Positions 24,780-36,596 of a stretch of 36,596 bases of DNA are shown here, piece after piece; the stretch's first letter is position 1; each line of letters begins with the position of its first letter. The notes beneath the pieces were generated by a model. The model saw only the letters and a list, made by a program, of their open reading frames with translations. It was not told the origin of the DNA and did not search any database. The position numbers and the translations under genes were made by a program. Source of the stretch: Sneathiella sp. (GTDB lineage: Bacteria; Pseudomonadota; Alphaproteobacteria; Sneathiellales; Sneathiellaceae); contig NZ_NZMB01000022.1 of the NCBI RefSeq assembly GCF_002694385.1, positions 72,710 to 109,305 on the forward strand. Reading direction: 5' to 3'.

Positions 24780-24871
24780 CGCTCACCTTCCATGAAAACA
24801 ATGCCATCAGTCAGGAAAAACGGATAGAGTCGGTGTCGGTACATAATGCTGATCCATCATTTCTCGGCCTA

Positions 24872-24883
24872 TGGGGATCCCCA
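24872..24883. promoter_or_regulatory. perfect 12-base palindrome in the MDR/exporter divergent region
   Basis: TGGGGATCCCCA is a perfect palindrome in the 143 bases between the divergent MDR and exporter genes. A TATAGT at 24905-24910 follows it on the plus strand. It could be an operator for either gene, but no nearby regulator gene supports this, and short palindromes also occur by chance. Confidence 0.3.
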
Positions 24884-24922
24884 GAACGCGGGCCTGATTA
24901 TTTTTATAGTGAATACAAAGCC

Positions 24923-25687
24923 ATGATTGCCCAATATTTTCCCGAGTTCAATCTTTTCCATCTCCTGATTGTCTGTCTGGCCTTCACTCTGGGAGGTTTT
25001 GTCAAGGGTATCTCCGCGTTCGGTTTGCCGACAGTCGCCGTTCCGATCATGGTCTTTTTTGTTCCTCTCCCCACAGCGGTCGCCATCATGATCCTGCCCA
25101 TGATGGTGACGAATTTCATCCAGATGCTGGTGACCGGCCAGATAAAATCATCCATCCTCCGCCATTGGCGACTGTATCTTGGCCTTTTTCTGGGGCTGCC
25201 CATCGGCGTTTATATGCTCTCCGCCCTCAATACCGATAATCTGCTGATCGGCATCGGTGTCATGCTGATTGTTATTGCCCTGCTCGAGCTTTCGGTTTTC
25301 TCTTTCGGCTTTCTCGGCCGTCAGGAGAAAATATCGGGGCCCGTTATCGGCTTTATCTCCGGCATCATTGGCGGCATCACGACGCTTTACGCCACCCTGC
25401 CCGTATTCTTTTTTATTGCCATCGGCCTTGAAAAAGAAAAATTTGTCGCCGCCGTCAGCGTCATGCTGTTCAGCGGCAGCATTTTTCTCATGTTGAGCCT
25501 GCAAAGCATGGATATCCTCGGCCTGACTGAGCTTGCCTACAGTATTATTGGGCTTGGCCCGCTGTTTCTCAGTATGTGGGCCGGCACCAAAGTCAGGCAT
25601 CTCATCAATCAGACGACCTTCAGAAAATTCGTCCTGATAATGGTCGCCATGATCGGCGTCACCATGATCTACCGCGCGCTCACTTAA
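24923..25687 (+). CDS. TauE/SafE (TSUP) family membrane exporter
   Basis: A 254-residue inner-membrane protein of the sulfite-exporter/TSUP family (Pfam TauE), whose members move sulfite, sulfoacetate or other organosulfur anions. About eight hydrophobic segments are visible, with the family repeat GGFVKGISAFGLPTVAVPIMVFF near residue 25 and the second-half repeat GFISGIIGGITTLYATLPVFF near 150. I place the start at the ATG at 24923 because it gives a normal TSUP N-terminus. A GTG at 24833 would add 30 hydrophilic residues, and neither start has a strong ribosome site. It converges on the histidine-kinase gene with two bases between the stops. The substrate cannot be read from the sequence. 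Confidence 0.87.
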   Translation: MIAQYFPEFNLFHLLIVCLAFTLGGFVKGISAFGLPTVAVPIMVFFVPLPTAVAIMILPMMVTNFIQMLVTGQIKSSILRHWRLYLGLFLGLPIGVYMLSALNTDNLLIGIGVMLIVIALLELSVFSFGFLGRQEKISGPVIGFISGIIGGITTLYATLPVFFFIAIGLEKEKFVAAVSVMLFSGSIFLMLSLQSMDILGLTELAYSIIGLGPLFLSMWAGTKVRHLINQTTFRKFVLIMVAMIGVTMIYRALT

Positions 25688-25689
25688 GA

Positions 25690-28440
25690 TCATTCAGCGG
25701 ATAATGAGATTTCTGCAAGACCGGCATGCGGTAAGGTAAAGGTAAAGAGAGCGCCGCCTTCCGTTTTGTTTGAAACCCAGATCCGCCCTCCGAAGAAGGT
25801 GACGATTTCCCGGCAGATGGCAAGGCCAAGCCCCGATCCCTGCGGCTTGTCTCCGCCCCGCCCGGTAGACTGGTGAAATTTTTCAAAGACCCGTTCTTCC
25901 ATATCATCGGGAATGCCCCGGCCATTATCGGCAACACTGATTTGCAACTCGCTGTCGGCGACATTCACCGAAACCTCGATCCGCCCTTCCGATTTGTCAC
26001 AGAATTTGATGGCATTGGAAACCAGATTGATGATGACCTGCATGAGCTGATCCCGATCGGCGCGGACACAGGGCAGATGGTCCGGGATATCAACCTGCAC
26101 AGCCACGCCATTTTCCTGTACCAGCCCGTCAAGCGCCGCCATAGCCTCCTGCAACGTTGACCGCACATCCACCTCATCGAGGGACCAATCCATCTCACCC
26201 GCCTCCATCCGGGCGAGATCGAGAAGCTGGTCGATAAGCCGGGTCAGACGGGAGCTTTCCTTGACAATGACATTCAGGAAGCGTTCGCGTTCCTCTCGTG
26301 AAACTTCCGGATTATCGACGAGAATTTCGCCAAACGCCCTCAAGGACGTCAACGGTGTTCTCAATTCATGGCTGACCATGGAAAGAAAATGATCTTTCAG
26401 AGAATCGAGTTCCTTTAACCGTTCATTGGCATTGCGAAGCTGCGCCGTCGCCTGTTCCAATTCCGCCGATTTCTGTTCCAGACGATGGCTGTATTCGATC
26501 ACCTGGCTGGTCTCATCGAGAATTCGATACACTTCGTCCAGACCGACAATCTCTCCCTTCACGACAGTTCCCACCATGACCCGCGCCGTTGCCGAGCCAA
26601 TGGCGCCCGCCAGCAGCTTCTCGGCAAAATCAAGTAGCGCGGCATCGGCGGACTGATTGCGTTTCAGGTTGAGATTGCGTTCTTCGGCAAACTCGGCAAA
26701 AGCCTTGGCCGCGCGCTGGCCACCGACGAACCGCCCGACAAGCTGCTGCAAATCAGAAACAGTGGCCGACCCTCGCCAATAGCGACTGTCACGCTCATCA
26801 TCCGTATGGCCGAAGACATCAACAAACAACGTCCCCTGAATACGCTCGATCGCGGTCTGCTGCGACAGCAGGGAAACCAGCCACAGGGCCCCGATATTGA
26901 ACAGCATACTCCAGAACAGCGCATGGGTCAGCCGGTCAAACCCCTCCAGACCGAACAGGGCATAGGGTTTGAGAAAATCAATCCCAAAGGGGCCTTCTGC
27001 AATAAAACTGAGGGGTAACCAGCCCGACTGGGCAAAGGAGGGCAGCAGCAATGTGTATATCCAGATCAGGAAACCAAGCGCCAAACCGGTCATCGCGCCA
27101 TGATAGGATGCGCCTTTCCAGAAAATGCCGATGATAATCGCCGGGGCAAATTGGGCGGCCGCAGCAAAGGACACAAGCCCGATGGTAACGAGGGAATAGC
27201 TCTCGCTCGCGAATAAATAATAGACATACCCCAAAAACAGGATCACCAGAATACTGATGCGGCGGATCGTCAAAAGCAGACCGGTCAGGTCGTCATTCTT
27301 GTTGATATTGAACCAGCGCGCCCGCAGCAGAAGCGGCATGATCAGGTCGTTGCAGATCATGGTACTGAGCGCGATCGCCGCCACGATCACCATGGAAGTG
27401 GCGGCGGACAGCCCTCCCACGAAAGCAATCAGCGCCAGCATCTCCTGATCATTGATCAACGGCAATGTCAGCATGAACATATCCGCGTCCGCCGTGACGC
27501 CATCAAAGGCGATCCGCCCCGCAAGTGCAATCGGCAACACAAAGATATTGATCACCAGCAGATAAAGCGGGAACAGCCATGTCGCCTTGCGCAGATAGGA
27601 TTCTTCAGGATTTTCAACGGCCGTTATGTAAAACTGGCGCGGCAGACAGATAATGGCGGCCATGGACAGGATGGTCATTGTCATCCACCGGCTGTAGTCT
27701 CCATCCGCATTCACCGCGAACAGCGTGTCGAGGCCGTTTTCGGCAGCTTTCGCGAAAAGGTCGGTAAAACCACCATACAGCCCATAGGTTACAAAAAATC
27801 CGACTGTCAGAAATGCCACCATTTTCACAACGGATTCAAAGGCAATTGCCGCCACCAGCCCTTCATGATGCTCGCTGGCGTCAATGTGACGCGTGCCGAA
27901 AAGAATGGCGAAGAGCGCAAGCGTAAGCGCAACGATCAGTGTCGTATCAATAAAATAAATCGGATCACTGGCTGCATGCAAAAGCTGCCCGTCGGCGGAG
28001 CTGATCAGGATGCGAAAGCTTGTGGCAATGGATTTAAGCTGCAGTGATATGTAGGGCGTCGTACCGACAACCGTGATGATGGTGACAAGGCCGCCAAGGC
28101 GCGCCCGCTTTCCATAGCGGGAGGCAATGAAATCGGCGATTGATGTAATGCGGTGCAGCTTACAGATACGGATGATCTTGATCCAGATGACCGACCAAAG
28201 CACGAATACCAGGGTCGGCCCAAGATAGATGGGCAGGAAATCAAAGCCCCGCGTCGCTGCGAGGCCGACACTTCCGTAAAAGGTCCAGGACGTACAAAAG
28301 ACGGCAATCGACAGGGTATAGACATATGGATTGCGGGTAAAAGGCCGCCCCTTGTCCGCCCGATGATCAACAAATTGCGCAATCGCGAACAAAAGCCCGA
28401 GGTAAAGAATAGAAACCGTAAGGACAAGCCCGCCCGACAT
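25690..28440 (-). CDS. SSS transporter-histidine kinase fusion (CrbS/CbrA-like sensor)
   Basis: A 916-residue sensor. Residues about 1-500 form an SLC5/sodium-solute-symporter domain with many helices (YVYTLSIAVFCTSWTFYGSVGLAA, TSIADFIASRYGKRARLGG, GGLSAATSMVIVAAIALSTM). About 530-640 is a STAC-like linker, followed by a short coiled coil. The DHp domain has His691 in SHELRTPLTSLRAFGE, and the ATPase domain shows NLVSNAIKF, DNGRGIPDD and GSGLGLAIC. No PAS domain and no C-terminal receiver are present, unlike the usual CrbS. The ATG overlaps the preceding small gene as TGATG; a GTG three bases earlier is possible. With acs and a receiver gene close by it probably senses acetate or a related metabolite. 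Confidence 0.9.
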   Translation of the reverse strand: MSGGLVLTVSILYLGLLFAIAQFVDHRADKGRPFTRNPYVYTLSIAVFCTSWTFYGSVGLAATRGFDFLPIYLGPTLVFVLWSVIWIKIIRICKLHRITSIADFIASRYGKRARLGGLVTIITVVGTTPYISLQLKSIATSFRILISSADGQLLHAASDPIYFIDTTLIVALTLALFAILFGTRHIDASEHHEGLVAAIAFESVVKMVAFLTVGFFVTYGLYGGFTDLFAKAAENGLDTLFAVNADGDYSRWMTMTILSMAAIICLPRQFYITAVENPEESYLRKATWLFPLYLLVINIFVLPIALAGRIAFDGVTADADMFMLTLPLINDQEMLALIAFVGGLSAATSMVIVAAIALSTMICNDLIMPLLLRARWFNINKNDDLTGLLLTIRRISILVILFLGYVYYLFASESYSLVTIGLVSFAAAAQFAPAIIIGIFWKGASYHGAMTGLALGFLIWIYTLLLPSFAQSGWLPLSFIAEGPFGIDFLKPYALFGLEGFDRLTHALFWSMLFNIGALWLVSLLSQQTAIERIQGTLFVDVFGHTDDERDSRYWRGSATVSDLQQLVGRFVGGQRAAKAFAEFAEERNLNLKRNQSADAALLDFAEKLLAGAIGSATARVMVGTVVKGEIVGLDEVYRILDETSQVIEYSHRLEQKSAELEQATAQLRNANERLKELDSLKDHFLSMVSHELRTPLTSLRAFGEILVDNPEVSREERERFLNVIVKESSRLTRLIDQLLDLARMEAGEMDWSLDEVDVRSTLQEAMAALDGLVQENGVAVQVDIPDHLPCVRADRDQLMQVIINLVSNAIKFCDKSEGRIEVSVNVADSELQISVADNGRGIPDDMEERVFEKFHQSTGRGGDKPQGSGLGLAICREIVTFFGGRIWVSNKTEGGALFTFTLPHAGLAEISLSAE

Positions 28441-28712
28441 CACCTTGTCTCATGTATTGGCGGCGGGGACGGCTCTCCCGCGACCTGCTCGGATAAAGGA
28501 GTGTCCGTCTCTCTCCCTTTGCCGCGCTTCGCACCGAGCGCCGTCAAGGCAATCGCCGCGCCCCAGACGGTAAAGAGATACAGAAAGATAATCGGGATTC
28601 CTAACAGGCGCCGGGGAGTATCAAAAATCATGATGACAGGCGGGAGAAGAGCGATCAGAAAAACAACGAACAGAAGGATCGACCATTCCTTTTTCCGTCC
28701 CGTCCTGATCAT
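28440..28712 (-). CDS. small two-helix membrane protein ahead of the SSS-kinase
   Basis: A 90-residue protein with a basic start (MIRTGRKKEW), two hydrophobic helices (about residues 11-28 and 38-58), then a hydrophilic basic-to-acidic tail. I do not recognise a named family with confidence. Small membrane proteins of this kind often precede SSS transporters or SSS-kinases and may act as an accessory subunit; CbrX before CbrA in Pseudomonas is a positional parallel. It has AGGA ahead of the ATG and is coupled by TGATG to the kinase, and it lies 25 bases after the receiver gene. The overlap strongly suggests a real, translated gene. Confidence 0.8.
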   Translation of the reverse strand: MIRTGRKKEWSILLFVVFLIALLPPVIMIFDTPRRLLGIPIIFLYLFTVWGAAIALTALGAKRGKGRETDTPLSEQVAGEPSPPPIHETR

Positions 28713-28737
28713 CGCCTATCCTTTCTATCCTGAAAAT

Positions 28738-29136
28738 TTAGTTCGGATTGACTGATCGGGCCGGTTTTACCGGGGATATTATTTCCCGGACCATCCGGCC
28801 AAGTTCGCGGGTCGAAAAAGGTTTGGTGACAAATTCATCCGCCCCCAGGGCGAGAGCCCGCTCCTTGTCGGCCTCCCGGCTTTTGGCGGACAGCATGATG
28901 ATCTTGACATTACGGCAGGCCGGATTGACGCGAATCTGCTCGCAAACCGAAAACCCGTTCTGTCTGGGCAACATGATATCGAGGAGAACCAGATCAGGCA
29001 CATAGTCGTCAATCGCCCGCAGCGCCTGTTCCCCGTCCCGCGCAACCCTGACCGTAAATCCCGCCTGCTTCAGAATAAATTGCAGGGACAGGACAATATT
29101 GGGCTCGTCCTCCACCACCAGCACCGTCGGTGTCAT
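28738..29136 (-). CDS. stand-alone response-regulator receiver (CheY-like)
   Basis: A 132-residue receiver domain with no output domain. The acidic pocket is Glu9-Asp10, the phosphorylation site is Asp53 in LVLLDIMLP, and Ser83 (MLSAKS) and Lys105 (VTKPF) complete the site. The protein ends about 15 residues after the fold closes. It lies upstream of the small membrane-protein and SSS-kinase genes on the same strand, so the kinase is the likely phospho-donor. It may be a relay intermediate or act by protein contact, since it cannot bind DNA itself. A GGGAG lies 11 bases before the ATG. Confidence 0.93.
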   Translation of the reverse strand: MTPTVLVVEDEPNIVLSLQFILKQAGFTVRVARDGEQALRAIDDYVPDLVLLDIMLPRQNGFSVCEQIRVNPACRNVKIIMLSAKSREADKERALALGADEFVTKPFSTRELGRMVREIISPVKPARSVNPN

Positions 29137-29314
29137 CTTGTCATATGCTCCCTTCCATATGAACGGGAAGCTGCCGATGACTGGCGCGTAATCCGGCTTT
29201 TAAAAGCTCTTTTCGTCGGACATCTTCCCTGTTCGGCGTCCTGTCACTCCGATCATACCCCATTTACGGGGATTATGTCATGACTCATCGTGACAGGCTG
29301 CCTCATTCCAATCG
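29137..29314. other. gap between acs and the receiver gene
   Basis: This 178-base stretch has no gene. It holds a perfect 12-base palindrome GCTTTTAAAAGC at 29196-29207, a small CCCC-N6-GGGG hairpin at about 29260-29273, and TGTCA/TGACA arms at about 29277-29296. None has a T-run that would make a convincing terminator for acs. A promoter for the receiver-kinase genes may lie here, but no clear -35/-10 pair was found. Confidence 0.4.
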
Positions 29315-31255
29315 TTACTTGTTCATGCGGTTAGCGATCAAATCATCGACCACCGCCGGCTCCGCCAGTGTCGAGGTGTCACCAAGACTACCGAAGTCAT
29401 TTTCGGCAACTTTGCGGAGAATGCGGCGCATGATTTTGCCGGAACGGGTTTTCGGCAGCCCCGGCGCCCACTGAATCAGATCCGGCGTTGCAATCGGACC
29501 GATTTCGTGGCGAACCCATTTAACGAGTTCTATGCGCAGCTCTTCCGTTGCCTCCACACCGGCCGTCAATGTGACATAGGCATAGATCCCCTGCCCCTTG
29601 ATATCATGGGGATACCCGACTACCGCCGCTTCCGCGACCATTTCGTGCGCGACAAGTGCGCTTTCAACTTCCGCCGTACCCATGCGATGTCCGGACACGT
29701 TGATCACGTCATCCACACGGCCCGTGATCCAATAATAGCCATCCTCATCCCGCCGCGCGCCATCACCGGTGAAATAACGGCCCGGAAAACTTGAAAAATA
29801 GGTTTGGATAAAGCGTTCATGATCACCATAAACCGTCCGCATCTGGCCCGGCCAGCTATCCTTGATACAGAGAATGCCCTCGCAGGCGCCCTCCAGCACG
29901 TTCCCCTCATTATCAACCATCAAGGGTTCAATCCCGAAGAAGGGAAGGGTCGCAGAACCCGGCTTCAGATCCGTCGCGCCCGGCAACGGGGAAATGAGAA
30001 TGCCGCCTGTTTCCGTCTGCCACCAGGTATCGACAATGGGGGAACGTCCCTCGCCCACCACATCATAATACCAGCGCCAGGCTTCGGGATTGATTGGCTC
30101 CCCCACAGAGCCCAGAAGACGAATGGATTTACGGGATGTCTTTTTGACCGGCTCATCCCCTTCGCGCATCAGCGCGCGGATCGCCGTCGGCGCGGTGTAG
30201 AAAATATTGACCTGATGCTTGTCGCACACCTCCCAGAAACGGGAGACGGTCGGATAGTTCGGCACGCCTTCGAACATCAATGTGGTCGCGCCATTGGCGA
30301 GCGGACCATAAAGAATATAGCTGTGGCCCGTCACCCAGCCGACATCGGCCGTGCACCAGTATATGTCTCCATCATGATAGTCGAACACATAACGATGCGT
30401 CATGGCCGCATAAACGATATAGCCACCCGATGTATGAAGAACCCCCTTCGGCTGCCCTGTCGAGCCGGAGGTGTATAGGATGAACAGCGGGTCTTCGGCT
30501 TTCATTTCCTCCGGCGGGCAATCCGCATCAACCTTCGCCATTTCCTCGTGATACCAGACATCGCGCCCCTCGACCCAGCCCACTTTGTTGCCCGTTCGTT
30601 TCACAACAATACAGGTTGTGCAGTCGGGGCAATCCTCCAGCGCCTCATCCGTATTGGCTTTGAGCGGAATGGCGCGGCCGCCGCGAATGCCTTCGTCGGC
30701 CGTGATCACACAATTGGACTTGCAATCCTGAATACGGCCCGCGAGCGCATCGGGCGAGAAGCCGCCGAAGACAACGGAATGAACGGCGCCGATCCGGGCA
30801 CAGGCGAGCATCGCCACGGCGGCCTCAACAATCATCGGCATATAAAGGGTAACGCGATCGCCTTTCTTAACCCCTTGCGCCTTCAGCACATTGGCGAATT
30901 TGCACACCTCGGCATGCAGCTCCCGATAGGTCAGCTTTTTATCATCTTTCGGATCGTCGCCCTCCCAGATGATCGCCGTGCTGTCACCGCGCGTCTCAAG
31001 ATGCCGGTCCAGACAGTTATAGCTGACATTCAGCGTCCCGTCGTAATACCAGCGGATATGCAGATCGTCCTGATTGTAGGAGACATCCTTGACCTGCGTG
31101 TAGGGTTTGATCCAGTCGATGCGCTTGCCATGCTCTCCCCAGAAGGCGGCAGGGTCCTCGATCGAGGCGCGGTACATGGCCTGATAGCTCGCCTTGTCGG
31201 CCCAGGCCGTTTTCGCCAATTCTTCCGGTACCGGATACAGATCCTTCGCAGACAT
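29315..31255 (-). CDS. acs: acetyl-CoA synthetase (AMP-forming acetate-CoA ligase)
   Basis: Acs activates acetate to acetyl-CoA through acetyl-AMP, letting cells scavenge or grow on acetate. The 646-residue protein is full length with the ANL motifs: [14 protein letters not shown] (P-loop, about residue 260), the acetate-specific [46 protein letters not shown] (A8 hinge), and [11 protein letters not shown] with catalytic Lys607, the residue usually silenced by acetylation. A TTGACT -35 element and a weak TGCTAT -10 lie upstream. The gene stands 179 bases before the receiver/SSS-kinase genes, the type of sensor that controls acs in gamma-proteobacteria. Confidence 0.97.
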
Positions 31256-31381: not shown

Positions 31382-32131
31382 TCAGATTGCCAGATACTCA
31401 TGCCGCAGTTCCTGATCGTCCAACACCTGTTGCGCGGTGCCGCGAAAGGCGATCTGCCCCATATCAAGGATCAGCGCTTTGTCAGCAAGCTGAAGCGCCG
31501 CAACGGCATTCTGTTCGACGATGATCGTCGTAATGCCGAGCTTTTTAACCTCCAGCAGGATTTTTTCGATTTCCTGCACAATGACCGGCGCCAACCCTTC
31601 ATAGGGTTCATCGAGAAACAACAGCTTCACCTCCCGGGCAAGGGCCCGGGCAACAGCCAGCATCTGCTGCTCCCCGCCGGACATGGTGACCGCATCCTGA
31701 TTGCGCCGCTCGCCAAGCCTTGGAAAGTGATCGTAAATCCGTTCGATCTCCCATCCTTTCGGCTCCGCCACCTGTGATAGCATCAGGTTTTCCTCAACTG
31801 TCAGTCCACCAATGATACGCCGGTCTTCCGGCACAAGCTGAATACCTTCGCGCGCCGCTTCATAGGCTTTGAGAGGGTGGATCGGCTTTCCGCCGAGATA
31901 GATTTCCCCTTTCCTGAGTGCGGGGCTGTCAACGCGGGCCAGTGCCCGCAAGGTGGATGTCTTGCCCGCACCGTTACGACCGAGCAAGGCAACGATGTCC
32001 CCTTCCTCAACATCGAACGACACTCCCTGGACAATATAGGATTCCCCATAATAGGCGTGAACGTCTTTGACACTGAAATAAGGTTTCTTCACCGCGGTTT
32101 CAGAGATTCTTTCTTCAATCGTCTCGGACAT
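31382..32131 (-). CDS. LivF-like ABC transporter ATPase (HAAT family)
   Basis: A 249-residue ATPase of the branched-chain amino acid/urea (HAAT) transporter class. It has an N-terminal tail of about 18 residues, then YFSVKDVHAYYGESYIVQGVSF, Walker A GRNGAGKTS near residue 52, the signature MSGGEQQMLAVARAL and Walker B LLFLDEPYEGLAP, followed by the switch histidine position replaced by glutamine or glutamate (IIVEQNA), which is normal for LivF. The ATG overlaps the stop of the LivG-like gene as TAATG. It is the last gene of the transporter operon and is followed by acs 127 bases on. The substrate is not determined by this subunit. Confidence 0.92.
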   Translation of the reverse strand: MSETIEERISETAVKKPYFSVKDVHAYYGESYIVQGVSFDVEEGDIVALLGRNGAGKTSTLRALARVDSPALRKGEIYLGGKPIHPLKAYEAAREGIQLVPEDRRIIGGLTVEENLMLSQVAEPKGWEIERIYDHFPRLGERRNQDAVTMSGGEQQMLAVARALAREVKLLFLDEPYEGLAPVIVQEIEKILLEVKKLGITTIIVEQNAVAALQLADKALILDMGQIAFRGTAQQVLDDQELRHEYLAI

Positions 32132-32889
32132 TAATGGGCACCTCCCAGATACGCTTCCTTGACCTTCGGATTTTCGCGAACCGTTTGCGGGTCGCCATCC
32201 GCAATAACCTGACCGCGAGCCAGCACGCTGACCTTATCGGCCAGGCTGAACACCACATGCATGTCATGCTCGATAATCACCTTGGTCATCCCCCGGGATT
32301 TGATTTTTTTCAGAAGTTCAATGGTCTGATTGGTATCGTGGCGGGACATGCCGGCTGTCGGCTCATCCAGCAGCAGCAGGCGCGGCTGCAAAATCAGGCA
32401 CATGCCGAGTTCGAGCCGTCGCTTATCCCCCCGGCTGAGGCTCCCCGCCTCTGTCAGCATCATATCCTTGAGGCCAACATCTTCAAGGATATGCTCCGCT
32501 TCCTCGCGGATTGCCGTCTGTCGGGACAGCAGTTTTCCCGCATTCAGACGAAAAGCTCCATCGCGGTGTGAAAGGGCGGGGATCATGACATTCTCAAGCA
32601 GGGTCATTTCCTGAAAAATCTCGGGCGTCTGGAATACCCGCGCCACGCCAAGCTGGGCAATCTCATGCGGCGCACGCCCCGTCAACTCTTCACCGGCGAA
32701 TGTGACCTTACCCGTGTCGGGCTTCAATCGGCCGATGCAGACATTGAGAAGTGTTGATTTGCCTGCGCCGTTTGGGCCGATAATCGCATGTGTCGTCCCC
32801 TCCTCCACATTCAGATTGATGTCGGAAAGTGCGCTTAGCCCGCCAAAACTTTTGTTGATGTTATCCAGATGAAGAACAAGACCATTCAT
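32131..32889 (-). CDS. LivG-like ABC transporter ATPase (HAAT family)
   Basis: A 252-residue ATPase partner of the LivF-like protein. Walker A is GPNGAGKST, Walker B is LLLLDEPTAGM, and the switch histidine is His in VIIEHDM. The ABC signature is unusual: SLSRGDKRRLELGM stands where LSGGQQR normally lies. I use the ATG at 32889 because AGAGGA lies about six bases upstream; a GTG at 32904 would add five residues and has no site. It follows the LivM-like gene by 11 bases. Confidence 0.92.
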   Translation of the reverse strand: MNGLVLHLDNINKSFGGLSALSDINLNVEEGTTHAIIGPNGAGKSTLLNVCIGRLKPDTGKVTFAGEELTGRAPHEIAQLGVARVFQTPEIFQEMTLLENVMIPALSHRDGAFRLNAGKLLSRQTAIREEAEHILEDVGLKDMMLTEAGSLSRGDKRRLELGMCLILQPRLLLLDEPTAGMSRHDTNQTIELLKKIKSRGMTKVIIEHDMHVVFSLADKVSVLARGQVIADGDPQTVRENPKVKEAYLGGAH

Positions 32890-32900
32890 GACGTATCCTC

Positions 32901-34061
32901 TCACTCCCCGGCCTGATTATGGGCCTCGACCGACTGTCGGTCCGATCTTGCGCCGCGAGATATGAAATAACGATAAGTGCGACGGAACCCTTCCACCAGG
33001 CCACCTGGCAGGAAAATCACAATCACCATAAACAGCAGACCAAGCGTCAGATGCCAACCACTGCCGACGAACAGCCCGACGACCGGCACGAGAATGTCGG
33101 TCACACTGTCCGGGAGAAAGGAGAAGGCTTGCTGCAACACATTGTTATCAAAGGAAGAGAATATATTTTCGAAATATTTGATCAGTCCCGCCCCCAACAT
33201 CGGCCCGACCAGCGTGCCCGCCCCGCCAAGAATGGTCATCAGCACCACTTCCCCCGAGGCTGTCCATTGCATCCGTTCCGCTCCGGCAAGCGGGTCTGTG
33301 ACCGCCAGCAGGCTTCCGGCGAGTCCCGCATACATGCCCGAAATGATAAAGGCGGTCAGCATATAAGGCCGGGTATTGAGGCCGGTATATTTCATCCGGT
33401 TCTGGTTCGACTTGATGCCTTTCAGCATGAGGCCGAATGGCGAGCGGAAAATCCGTAGCGACACATAGAAGCAGATAATCAAAAGAACCGCGCAGAAGTA
33501 GAAACCGGGATAACCGCTCATGGTTTCACCGAACAGATCCGTGCTCGGCAGTCCCAGACTTGGCTGTCCGTTGGCAAACATGCTGTCCAGAATACGCGGA
33601 TCGGACGCCGCGAGCTGCAATCCCGTCTCGCCATTTGTGATCGGTGTCAGAACCGAATAGGCAAGATTGTAGGACATCTGCGCAAAGGCAAGCGTCAGGA
33701 TTGAGAAGTAAATACCCGACCGCCGCAGGCTCAGAAAACCGATGATCGCGGCCAGTATGCCGGCGAACAGGACCCCGAATATCACGGCCGGAATAACATT
33801 CATGGTCAATAGCTTGAACGACCAGACCGCTGCGTAGGAGCCAACCCCGAGAAAGGCGGCGTGACCGAAAGAGAGATAGCCGGTCAGGCCAAAGAGAATG
33901 TTAAAACCGATTGCGAAGATGCCATAGATGGCAAATTTCTGAAGCAAATCCGGATAATTGCCCCCGATCGGATCAAGCCAGAGCGGCATCAGCAGGATTG
34001 CGGCCGCAAAGACGATGACAAGAAGGGTGTCGTTGAGGGACGGCTTGATCATATCAGTCAT
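32901..34061 (-). CDS. LivM-like ABC transporter permease (HAAT family)
   Basis: A 386-residue inner-membrane permease of the BPD_transp_2 family. The family segment [32 protein letters not shown] lies near residues 45-75. The coupling loop is [27 protein letters not shown] near 230, and [23 protein letters not shown] near 275 is the conserved second-half motif. It carries a basic C-terminal tail. The ATG overlaps the end of the LivH-like gene by eight bases, so the two permeases are translationally coupled and probably form the heterodimeric channel. Confidence 0.92.
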
Positions 34062-35070
34062 CCATAACTCCTGTCCGGCCCATCAGACCACGCGGTAATA
34101 CCAGCAGAATAATAACGGCAACGAGGTAGAGAATGATCTGGTCAATGCCGGGGAAGATATCTTTCACTTCATTCATTGACGCGAAGGACTGCACCACGCC
34201 AAGCAGGAACCCGGCCAGCACGGCACCGCCCAGCGATCCCATTCCCCCCACGACCACGACCACAAATGAGAGGACGAGGAAATCCATGCCAAGATGATAG
34301 TCGGGCGGCAGAATGGGCGTATACATTACCCCCGCGACACCGGCGACAATGGCCGCAATGGCGAAGACGACAGTAAAGCGCCGCTCGATATTGATGCCGA
34401 GCAGGCCGACTGTTTCACGATCCCGCATCCCGGCCCGCACCACCATGCCGTAAGTCGTGAATTGCAAAAAGGCGAATACCGAAAAAATAACAACCGCGGA
34501 AAAGCAGAAATAGATCAGCCGCCACCAGGGATAAACAAGATTGTCGCCAAGCCCCAGCCAGGCACCGACATTGGCGCTGCCCGACAAAATTTCAGGCGCG
34601 GGCTGCGGGATGGGATTAGCCCCGAAATAGGCCTTGATGATTTCCTGAAGAACGATGGCAAGACCGAAAGTTACCAGAATCTGTTCGGCATGTGGCCGTT
34701 TATAGAAATGCTTGATAAGGCCGCGTTCCATAACATAGCCAATCAGCAACATCACAGGAATAGCTAACAGAATTGATAGCGGCACCGAATAGTCGATGAT
34801 GACATGCCCAGCCTCCCCGAACCATGTTTCCAGATAGGGCTGTTCCTTATAGGCCGCAAAGGCCGTAATACTTTCATCCCGCACCTTGGCGGAGAGGGTA
34901 ACCAGCTTCTGAAAGGTGACGGCACAAAATGCGCCGAGCATGAACAGCGCGCCATGGGCGAAGTTCACAATCCCGAGCGTGCCAAAGACCAACGTCAGGC
35001 CCAGCGCAATCAGCGCATAGGCCGCCCCTTTGTCCAGTCCGTTCAGGATTTGAATAAAAATGGCATCCAT
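34054..35070 (-). CDS. LivH-like ABC transporter permease (HAAT family)
   Basis: A 338-residue permease with the LivH hallmark [27 protein letters not shown] at residues about 22-48, the coupling loop [23 protein letters not shown] near 213, and the conserved [22 protein letters not shown] near 275. A hydrophilic insert of about 40 residues ([11 protein letters not shown] to ETWFGEAG) after the second helix makes it longer than a typical LivH. It lacks the large N-terminal domain of UrtB, which argues against a urea transporter. It lies 108 bases after the binding-protein gene, with a terminator-like hairpin between them. Confidence 0.92.
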
Positions 35071-35120
35071 GAAATCTACCCCGTAATCCCCATCGAACGC
35101 ATCCCGGAGTTACCGCCGGG

Positions 35121-35161
35121 AAAAAAGGCGGGTTGACGCCCTCCCTGAACCGCCAACCCGC
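35121..35161 (-). terminator. probable attenuating terminator between binding-protein and permease genes
   Basis: On the minus strand GCGGGTTGGCG (35161-35151) pairs with CGTCAACCCGC (35138-35128) in an 11-base stem with one mismatch and a 12-base loop, followed at once by CTTTTTT (35127-35121). It lies just after the binding-protein stop and before the LivH-like gene. Such a hairpin usually lets the binding protein be made in excess over the membrane subunits. Confidence 0.8.
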
Positions 35162-35178
35162 ACTCAAATGTACAGAAA

Positions 35179-36531
35179 CTACATCTTCACTTCATAGGGC
35201 CCAAGCTCTCCACCGAAGATGGAGGCATCATACTCCACCTGGGCACGTGGAGTGATATCGACCACCTTCAGGATATCGAACTGGCTGCTCGGGTTCTCGT
35301 TTCCGCGCACGACCAGTACGTCCTTGAAGCATTGATGATCTTCCGCACGATAAAGCGTCGGGCCATTGCCCATGCCGTCGAAATTGAAGCCTTCAAGCGC
35401 CTTGATAACTTCCGGAGGATAGAAAGTGCCCGCCATTTCACAGGCATTTGCATACAGCAGTGTCTGCACGTAGCAGGTATGGGCGGCCATTGACGGCGGC
35501 TCGCCATATTCGGCGCCGAAGGACTGCACAAAAGCCTTGGAGCCTTCATCCTGCAACGACCAGTTCCAGTTTGCCGTTCCAAGGATGCCCTTCACCGCAT
35601 CACCGGCGCCGCGCGCCATAAGACGCGAGAAAAGCGGCACGACAATTTCGAAATTCTTGCCGTTGGCTTGTTTGTCCCGCAGACCGAACTGAACCGCCTG
35701 GGTCAGCGAATTGACCATATCCTTGCCATAATGATTCAGGATAAGAACATCCGCCCCGGAATTCAGAACCGGCGTGATATATTGCGAGAAATCCCCGGCC
35801 CCAACTGGCGTCTTGACCGTCTCGACGGTTTCCCAGCCGATTGCTTCGGTCGAATTTTTGATCGATTCTTCCTGCGTCCAGCCCCAAGTATAGTCAGCCG
35901 TCAGATGATAGGCGCGGCGATCCTTCCCATATTCCTTCTCCAGCACCGGCGCCAGCGCCTTGCCCGACATATAGGCATTGAAAAAGTGACGGAACCCATA
36001 CCGCCGCTTGTCCTTGCCTGTCGTATCATTGGAATGGGTCAGCCCCGCCATGAAGATAATGCCCTGCTCCTGACAGAGCGATTGCACGGCCACAGCCACA
36101 CCCGAGGACGACCCCCCGGTAATCATCAATACACCGTCCTTTTCGATCATCCGCTTTGCCGAGGCCCGCGCCGCATCGGATTTGGTCTGCGTGTCGCCAG
36201 TTGAATAGGTCACCTTCTTGCCAAGTACGCCCTTGCCGGTCAGGTTGGACGGCTTGAAAGTATTCAGCATACCGCCATCCCCTTCACCATTCAGATGCTT
36301 GACCGCCAGCATGTAGGCTCGCAATTCATCGTTTCCTTCATCGGCATACGGGCCGGTTTGCGGCACGTTGAAACCGAGCTTCAACTCACCGGATTTTTCA
36401 GGGTTGTTGCGAAACTCTTCTGCCCATGCATTCCGGATAAAAAAGCTCGGCGTTGCCGCAACCAGGCCGCCCACGGCGCCCGCTTTCAGCAAACCACGGC
36501 GCGACATGCCTGATTTCGTGAAATCGCTCAT
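35179..36531 (-). CDS. Tat-exported HAAT-family ABC transporter substrate-binding protein
   Basis: A 450-residue periplasmic type I binding protein (Leu/Ile/Val-binding, PBP1 fold). The N-terminus has a twin-arginine motif, SRRGLL with Arg11-Arg12, then a hydrophobic run and probable cleavage after Ala37 (NAWA-EE). The fold shows LKLGFNVPQTGPYADEGNDELRAYMLAV near residue 50, MITGGSSSGVAVAVQSLCQEQGI near 140 and GDFSQYITPVLNSGADVLILNHYG near 255. The ATG at 36531 has GGGAG seven bases upstream; an upstream frame from 36591 is not supported. The family is clear, but the ligand is not: amino acids, amides or short carboxylates are all possible. The gene heads the livHMGF-like operon. Confidence 0.9.
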   Translation of the reverse strand: MSDFTKSGMSRRGLLKAGAVGGLVAATPSFFIRNAWAEEFRNNPEKSGELKLGFNVPQTGPYADEGNDELRAYMLAVKHLNGEGDGGMLNTFKPSNLTGKGVLGKKVTYSTGDTQTKSDAARASAKRMIEKDGVLMITGGSSSGVAVAVQSLCQEQGIIFMAGLTHSNDTTGKDKRRYGFRHFFNAYMSGKALAPVLEKEYGKDRRAYHLTADYTWGWTQEESIKNSTEAIGWETVETVKTPVGAGDFSQYITPVLNSGADVLILNHYGKDMVNSLTQAVQFGLRDKQANGKNFEIVVPLFSRLMARGAGDAVKGILGTANWNWSLQDEGSKAFVQSFGAEYGEPPSMAAHTCYVQTLLYANACEMAGTFYPPEVIKALEGFNFDGMGNGPTLYRAEDHQCFKDVLVVRGNENPSSQFDILKVVDITPRAQVEYDASIFGGELGPYEVKM

Positions 36532-36596
36532 GAAATGTCTCCCATAATTATGTTGGATCTCCCCGGACAGGAAGCCCGCGCCTGTTTTCACGAGCC

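Follow-up and report, generated by a model that had tools for sequence, protein, structure and literature searches.

A PAS-less SLC5-STAC sensor kinase with a free receiver in Sneathiella, and a candidate output regulator carrying a DHp-like segment

The DNA analyzed here (the window) is a stretch of 36,596 nucleotides from Sneathiella sp. (contig NZ_NZMB01000022.1, positions 72,710 to 109,305 of the forward strand). It encodes a sensor kinase in which an SLC5 transporter domain is joined by STAC to a histidine kinase core without a PAS domain, together with a free single-domain receiver and, beside both, acs. The output of this kinase-receiver pair is probably a ScfR regulator encoded just beyond the window, which carries a segment resembling the DHp domain of the kinase itself. 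The segment appears to derive from, or to mimic, the DHp of the PAS-less kinase, and proteins that bear it nearly always accompany the kinase in genomes. On balance we consider it likely that these components form a distinct kind of transceptor two-component system, running from SLC5-STAC kinase to free receiver to an output protein with a DHp mimic. The elements concerned are as follows (L, G and C numbers denote loci, genomes and contigs):

25690..28443, minus strand: sensor kinase, SLC5-STAC-HisKA-HATPase, 917 aa, GTG start (open reading frame listing, Pfam, structure alignment, AlphaFold)
26821..28443, minus strand: SLC5 transporter domain, residues 1-541 (alignment, AlphaFold, Foldseek)
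26557..26760, minus strand: STAC four-helix bundle, residues 562-629 (alignment to 10ed_A, AlphaFold)
26314..26541, minus strand: continuous helix from STAC to DHp, residues 635-710 (AlphaFold)
26197..26397, minus strand: HisKA/DHp, residues 683-749, H-box SHELRTPL (Pfam, alignment)
25726..26058, minus strand: HATPase_c, residues 796-906 (Pfam)
28738..29136, minus strand: free single-domain receiver, 132 aa, phospho-Asp D53 (open reading frame listing, Pfam, alignment)
C11:109441-111057, plus strand: mimic-bearing ScfR/RamB-type regulator; its start would be 36732, 136 bp past the right end of the window (profile matches)

The regulator gene is divergent from the cluster of ATP-binding cassette (ABC) transporter, acs, receiver and kinase genes. 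Its product gives a full-length profile match, with PF09856 at C11:110578-111003 (148.8 bits), and its DHp-like segment is detected at E 1.5e-8; the gene contains unread bases. The layout is an XRE helix-turn-helix (HTH), the DHp-like insert, an IrrE-like domain and a ScfR domain with conserved cysteines; Pfam finds the HTH, IrrE-like and ScfR domains in the Sneathiella orthologue at L229. These domains and cysteines are shared with the ScfR regulators RamB, PrpR and PccR, of which MtPrpR is reported, in the part of the account cited, with a [4Fe4S] cluster and CoA (PMC6765138). The insert is what differs: the genome encodes three ScfR proteins, and the two paralogues on C18 show a gap at the position of the DHp-like segment. 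No description of a ScfR protein with such an insert was found in the open-access papers searched.

Clustering of neighboring genes over 55 loci (five further Sneathiella loci were omitted) placed a ScfR/RamB-type regulator at 18, on the kinase strand in 18 of 19 open reading frames and usually just upstream of the receiver. A match of the DHp helices to the profile of the PAS-less kinase core lies between the HTH and IrrE-like domains at 18 loci (E 1.1e-18 to 1.3e-5), and L178 and L185 supply two additional regulators with the segment. The segment is likewise present, at the same place, at all seven Sneathiella loci, namely our own and those of six relatives (2.4e-14 to 1.5e-8). When profiles of different DHp domains were compared, that of the PAS-less kinase was the best in each of 24 regulators, at 17.4-59.3 bits, against 14.9 bits or less for the alternatives (20 CrbS-type and five other own-genome DHps; two regulator fragments were dropped). 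The HisKA model of Pfam clears its cut-off in L045 (33.1 bits) but falls short of it in the other three listed (L047, L170 and L229).

A further line of evidence concerns co-occurrence, for which 398 Pseudomonadota genomes were sampled. The full-length PAS-less kinase is present in at least 62, comprising 34 Alphaproteobacteria and 28 others among the matches listed; a 34%-identical relative of 942 aa in G136 was not counted as PAS-less. With a profile spanning HTH plus DHp, full-length matches score 195-288 bits, while the next best reaches 137 bits and ends before the DHp. The mimic-bearing regulator so defined occurs in 32 genomes, all of them, among the matches listed, belonging to the 34 alphaproteobacterial kinase genomes, and it may lie far from the kinase (about 150 kb in G337, about 1.4 Mb in G363). 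The Alphaproteobacteria that have the kinase without this regulator, G255 and G213, both carry a second type of protein: a transmembrane-PAS-pseudokinase-exonuclease. This protein is present at full length in 41 genomes (in three of them in two pieces), which among the matches listed are 27 of the 28 non-alphaproteobacterial kinase genomes and five of the 34 alphaproteobacterial ones, together 32 of the 62, and nine without a full-length kinase; G123, which has the exonuclease without a full-length kinase, has a kinase fragment. Among 14 aligned exonuclease proteins the phospho-His position is never His and in ten it is acidic. Among the matches listed, one or other partner is found in 61 of 62 kinase genomes vs 9 of 336 others (Fisher 6.5e-61, kinship ignored). 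Exonucleases near CrbS-type kinases (L191, 236 aa; L205, 210 aa; L200, a DUF294 fusion) matched over the exonuclease part only; L200 and an ordinary kinase (L051), caught by the exonuclease profile, were dropped from the counts.

A compact arrangement of this second type is on plasmid 1 of Paracoccus denitrificans PD1222 (L231:6278-13178; NC_008688.1:624884-631784), where DUF294, small gene, kinase, receiver and PAS-exonuclease follow one another as PDEN_RS25395-RS25415. The last four frames overlap, and the genes are annotated as hypothetical or generically; the PAS-pseudokinase protein of P. denitrificans is WP_011751332. Neither of these further proteins was retained as an output in our own genome: the PAS-exonuclease query meets stretches of exonuclease domain only, with nothing at E<=1e-40, and DUF294 gives one match (21.5 bits against a cut-off of 21) in a 945-aa frame that is GlnD-like by length.

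The receiver scores 104 bits against Response_reg in Pfam and has no output domain; D10, D53 and K105 are invariant across 36 aligned free receivers. Of 60 flanked PAS-less loci, all but L157 and L159 have a free receiver, defined as a same-strand single receiver within 3.2 kb; in these 58 it lies upstream of the kinase in 46 and downstream in 12. None of 21 CrbS-type or 27 long SpoIIE-type loci has one. Counted loci are non-identical, with at least 2.9 kb of upstream and 1 kb of downstream flank, and six of the 60 are from Sneathiella. Short flanks removed 33 of 93 PAS-less, 2 of 23 CrbS-type and 6 of 33 long 'other' loci; also omitted were two long loci with an ELRTP core (one of which, L097, does have a free receiver) and 17 whose kinase is shorter than 840 aa (seven with enough flank, one with a free receiver). 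By this distribution the free receiver is assigned to the PAS-less kinase. The preliminary description of the window had likewise pointed to a complete free receiver beside the kinase with acs adjacent, and the open reading frames and Pfam bear this out.

If these components do form one system, passage or occupancy of the SLC5 substrate, relayed by STAC, would set autophosphorylation of the kinase, from which the free receiver would take up the phosphate. In its phosphorylated (or unphosphorylated) form the receiver would then dock on the mimic DHp of the regulator; docking would alter DNA binding by the regulator, which may also read acyl-CoA, and the regulator would act on its own divergent promoter and hence on the ABC-acs side. 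A precedent is provided by Caulobacter, where DivL is related to kinases, has no kinase activity and binds DivK~P via a docking interface (PMC4211667, in the part cited). Common to both cases would be a one-domain receiver read, through a docking face, by a relative of a kinase that lacks kinase activity. DivL, however, is a kinase-like protein, whereas in the present case a transcription factor or a PAS-pseudokinase-exonuclease would contain the docking segment. Binding of the receiver to the mimic may thus parallel that of DivK~P to DivL.

A search for DNA boxes was prompted by the RamB/PrpR operator, TTTGCAAA. At 12 of 17 loci the 300 bp upstream of the regulator contain boxes of the TTTGTAAA type, compared to a mean of 0.3 and a maximum of 3 of 17 in 500 shuffles. 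Our own 17-kb stretch holds two such matches, both within 124 bp upstream of the regulator and between it and the divergent ABC-acs genes. Most simply, this would mean autoregulation together with control of the ABC-acs side.

A number of observations weigh against this interpretation. The TTTGTAAA-type box is absent upstream of acs and of the receiver in the window, and absent upstream of the receiver in all 18 loci tested; because acs has no box of its own, direct control of acs rests on the ABC and acs genes sharing one strand. One kinase genome (G127) has neither partner, and nine genomes, among the matches listed, have the exonuclease without a full-length kinase. The co-occurrence counts ignore kinship, the thresholds were chosen after the gap in scores had been seen, and some of the genomes counted had themselves supplied rows of the query alignments (8 of 32 for the regulator, 9 of 41 for the exonuclease). 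No mimic-bearing neighbor is present at any of eight flanked Bacteroidota loci (flanks only). The structure model of the regulator was poor (mean predicted local distance difference test score, pLDDT, of 37, from two sequences) and was not used, so the DHp fold of the insert rests on sequence profiles. Phosphotransfer, docking and DNA binding are each proposed from sequence.

The best-surviving rival holds that the receiver is a phosphate sink, or acts elsewhere (on Acs or an unlinked response regulator), and that the segment in the ScfR regulator and the exonuclease serves something else. Such an arrangement would suit a receiver that stands alone without an output domain, and an acs or acs-like ligase is found in the flanks of 18 of 60 PAS-less loci, including Bacteroidota in which no mimic was found. 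It does not lead one to expect that mimic and kinase occur together, even unlinked, in 61 of 62 genomes vs 9 of 336 (among the matches listed), and we regard it as rather unlikely.

A second possibility is that the DHp-like segment of the regulator is a true phosphotransfer site, the phosphate passing from kinase to receiver to a His of the regulator. The H-box His is kept in all 17 aligned regulators from outside Sneathiella, none with an ATPase domain of its own. Yet the position is Phe in all seven Sneathiella regulators, and the exonuclease relatives lack the His in 14 of 14 (acidic in ten); phosphotransfer to the mimic is therefore neither a general rule nor that of the organism of the window, and as an explanation it is distinctly improbable. 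With Phe in place of the phospho-His, we propose that the Sneathiella mimic can dock the receiver, and cannot accept phosphate at that position.

Returning to docking as the preferred explanation, we put at about even the chances that a ScfR factor and an exonuclease each acquired a decoy of one kinase's DHp, so that the free receiver would plug the same sensor into transcription or into nucleic-acid processing: an output class defined by kinase mimicry. This bears on how the signal leaves transporter-kinase fusions and on what orphan one-domain receivers do. Were docking true, a transcription factor and a nuclease would have been recruited as outputs by copying a kinase docking surface. Such outputs would be overlooked by annotation pipelines built to expect DNA-binding receivers. 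The sequence record names a likely partner, and compact loci such as the P. denitrificans PD1222 run are suited to testing.

The architecture of the kinase was as first described: it ends after the ATPase domain and has neither PAS nor receiver, on which Pfam, 40 relatives and AlphaFold agree. At E<=1 its Pfam matches are SSF (weak, below cut-off), HisKA, HATPase_c and overlapping weaker HATPase variants, and neither PAS nor Response_reg, whose detection by profile search had been named beforehand as counting against the description. HisKA and HATPase_c are present in 40 of 40 scanned relatives, and PAS and receiver models are absent from the 23 Pfam families matched in them (E<=0.1). In the AlphaFold model (mean pLDDT 79, predicted template-modeling score (pTM) 0.60; pLDDT <50 at 547-557 and 635-653) STAC helices occupy 562-573, 575-588, 601-615 and 617-629 and lead straight into a single helix, 635-710, so the model suggests no PAS fold.

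The family profile of the kinase aligns to the SLC5-STAC chain of CbrA (10ed_A) over residues 6-626 (E 4e-116). STAC is thus present, and the kinase has SLC5 joined by STAC to a kinase, as defines SLC5/STAC histidine kinases; as for the thirteen transmembrane helices of that definition, what was observed is a helical model and a full-length match of the family profile to 10ed_A. K207 (counted by hand on the same alignment) occupies the place of K196, the lysine that fills the Na2 site in CbrA according to the cited portion of PMC13022988. K207 is invariant in 40 aligned members, and coupling is therefore likely to be sodium-independent. Structures of human SGLT1/SGLT2 in complex with MAP17, a small partner, are also among the Foldseek matches of the SLC5 part. 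Since acs adjoins, the substrate may be acetate or another short acid.

The preliminary description took the kinase for a split or minimal CrbS; it is the SLC5-STAC half alone that is CrbS-like, and the kinase core is of another lineage. PAS-less cores have the H-box SHELRTPL, whereas 23 receiver-hybrid relatives have HDxxQP (SHDLLQPL and similar), a signature of CrbS that is our own, drawn from those hybrids, and is lacking in the window kinase. Against the profile of the PAS-less core, seven unrelated kinases of the same genome score 147-192 bits, CrbS-type cores 100-133 and CbrA cores 101-103. The PAS-less cores form one clade (support 97) outside that of CbrA, and in a tree of SLC5-STAC sequences (a quick method, with support from the Shimodaira-Hasegawa-like approximate likelihood ratio test only) the PAS-less kinases, SpoIIE-type proteins and three others (44 of 70 rows) are split by a fully supported branch from CrbS-type proteins and CbrA. 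Wherever the H-box of a PAS-less kinase was located, it lies 51 positions from query residue 640, except in L167 (30). Because the core clade is distinct and this spacing near-constant, the layout is old and settled and did not arise by recent loss. Its carriers include Alpha-, Beta- and Gammaproteobacteria, Magnetococcales, Bacteroidota, and a Desulfobulbus and a Chloroflexales bin, which could be mixed. No PAS-less SLC5 kinase with a free receiver was found described in the open-access papers searched.

As to the output, the preliminary description looked beyond the window, to a remote regulator, an orphan LuxR-type CrbR among them, a histidine phosphotransferase (Hpt) or a protein target. 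A regulator outside the window, likely as a protein partner, stands in the form of the ScfR protein with its DHp segment; the LuxR-type regulator and Hpt do not. The genome (98% complete) has a single GerE/LuxR-type regulator, a receiver-LuxR gene that adjoins a hybrid kinase of its own, and so no orphan CrbR was found. Hpt matches are limited to a 952-aa frame that also carries a receiver and a 178-aa frame below the family cut-off, neither a convincing free Hpt. That hybrid kinase-receiver beside the receiver-LuxR gene (C18:224412-226737; L006, L115) begins with a long hydrophobic stretch other than SLC5, for which Pfam gave no family on the partial frame; it is perhaps another transporter-kinase fusion. 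A degraded or split CrbS signaling to a remote CrbR-like LuxR regulator, although SLC5-STAC is common to both and acs adjoins, is very improbable given the different kinase core and clade, the lack of an orphan GerE regulator in the 98%-complete genome and the coexistence elsewhere of CrbS-type hybrids with the PAS-less kinase (e.g. G285, G342, G395 and G399).

Known systems show both likenesses and differences. CrbS/CrbR and RpuS/RpuR also have an SLC5-STAC kinase tied to acetate or pyruvate genes (PMC5715377, PMC9100948, in the parts cited), but these kinases have PAS, are fused to a receiver and work with a LuxR-type partner, and neither a free receiver nor the small gene considered next occurs at any of 21 CrbS-type loci. 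CbrX-CbrA/CbrB of Pseudomonas is closer in the sensor half, sharing the SLC5-STAC sensor, an upstream small two-helix membrane protein, overlapping frames and the Na2-site lysine (cited portions of PMC6591292 and PMC13022988); CbrA differs in having a PAS domain and a DNA-binding NtrC-type partner, where the window kinase has no PAS and a free receiver.

The small gene, which the preliminary description had overlooked, encodes 90 aa and is CbrX-like by position and hydrophobicity. In Pseudomonas the CbrX frame overlaps cbrA (PMC6591292, in the section cited), and CbrX is seen bound to the SLC5 domain in the cryo-EM structure (PMC13022988, likewise). The final profile detects a small hydrophobic gene before the kinase at 57 of the 60 PAS-less loci with sufficient flank, and the first profile adds L168 and L173; the gene is present at 27 of 27 long SpoIIE-type loci vs 0 of 21 CrbS-type loci. 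Profile comparisons weakly suggest homology to CbrX itself: E is 9.2 for PDB 10ed_X and 0.028-0.77 for three Pseudomonas-like CbrX frames (a small set). No known family was recovered: among 35 members, Pfam gave only weak and disparate matches, to DUF3311 in five (best 0.0015) and to DUF6611 in two (best 6e-7), and single-sequence matches to PsbK were taken for chance hydrophobic similarity. At L068:2853-6098 and 26 further flanked Geobacter-type loci, SLC5-STAC is fused to GAF and a SpoIIE-type phosphatase, with the CbrX-like gene directly upstream in all 27; 'SpoIIE-type' was checked by Pfam on L068 alone, the other long loci being grouped by length and kinship. The SLC5-STAC sensor half is thus combined with a phosphatase too.

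On the minus strand the genes read ABC transporter, acs, receiver, 90-aa gene and kinase. Besides the kinase and receiver the window contains:

28440..28712, minus strand: 90-aa CbrX-like hydrophobic small protein, with a 4-bp overlap with the kinase start (open reading frame listing, profiles)
29252..29281, minus strand: promoter-like ATGACA-18-TATGAT in the acs-receiver gap (motif scan, Sneathiella gap alignment)
29315..31255, minus strand: acs, AMP-forming acetate--CoA ligase (Pfam and homology)
31382..36591, minus strand: genes of an ABC transporter of the branched-chain/urea type, comprising two ATPases, two permeases and a binding protein, upstream of acs

The gene order is conserved in relatives, as had been asked of it: matches were obtained in 22 of 23 genus-mates searched, with the complete order from acs through receiver and small gene to kinase in 18, the same order with an interrupted kinase frame in two more, and two cut by contig ends. 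The ATGACA of the promoter-like site is kept in all seven aligned Sneathiella acs-receiver gaps, and the receiver-kinase unit may have its own promoter there; six promoter-like sites were observed in the region vs 5.7 by chance, so the single transcription unit of the preliminary description is one possibility. Inverted repeats upstream of acs common to the species compared were not found.

Three further neighbors were noted. At 8 of 55 loci (Bacteroidota, e.g. L054:1940-2401 and L050:1940-2368) an InsA-like zinc-ribbon/HTH protein is encoded on the kinase strand ~3.6 kb upstream, and could be the DNA-binding output in Bacteroidota loci. A FliM/FliN-like gene (family f28, e.g. L176:4526-5941) is the next gene downstream of the kinase, in the same orientation, at 10 of 55 loci. 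In the window itself, a TauE/SafE-type permease (24833-25687, plus strand) is convergent with the kinase and is present in most of the Sneathiella loci examined.

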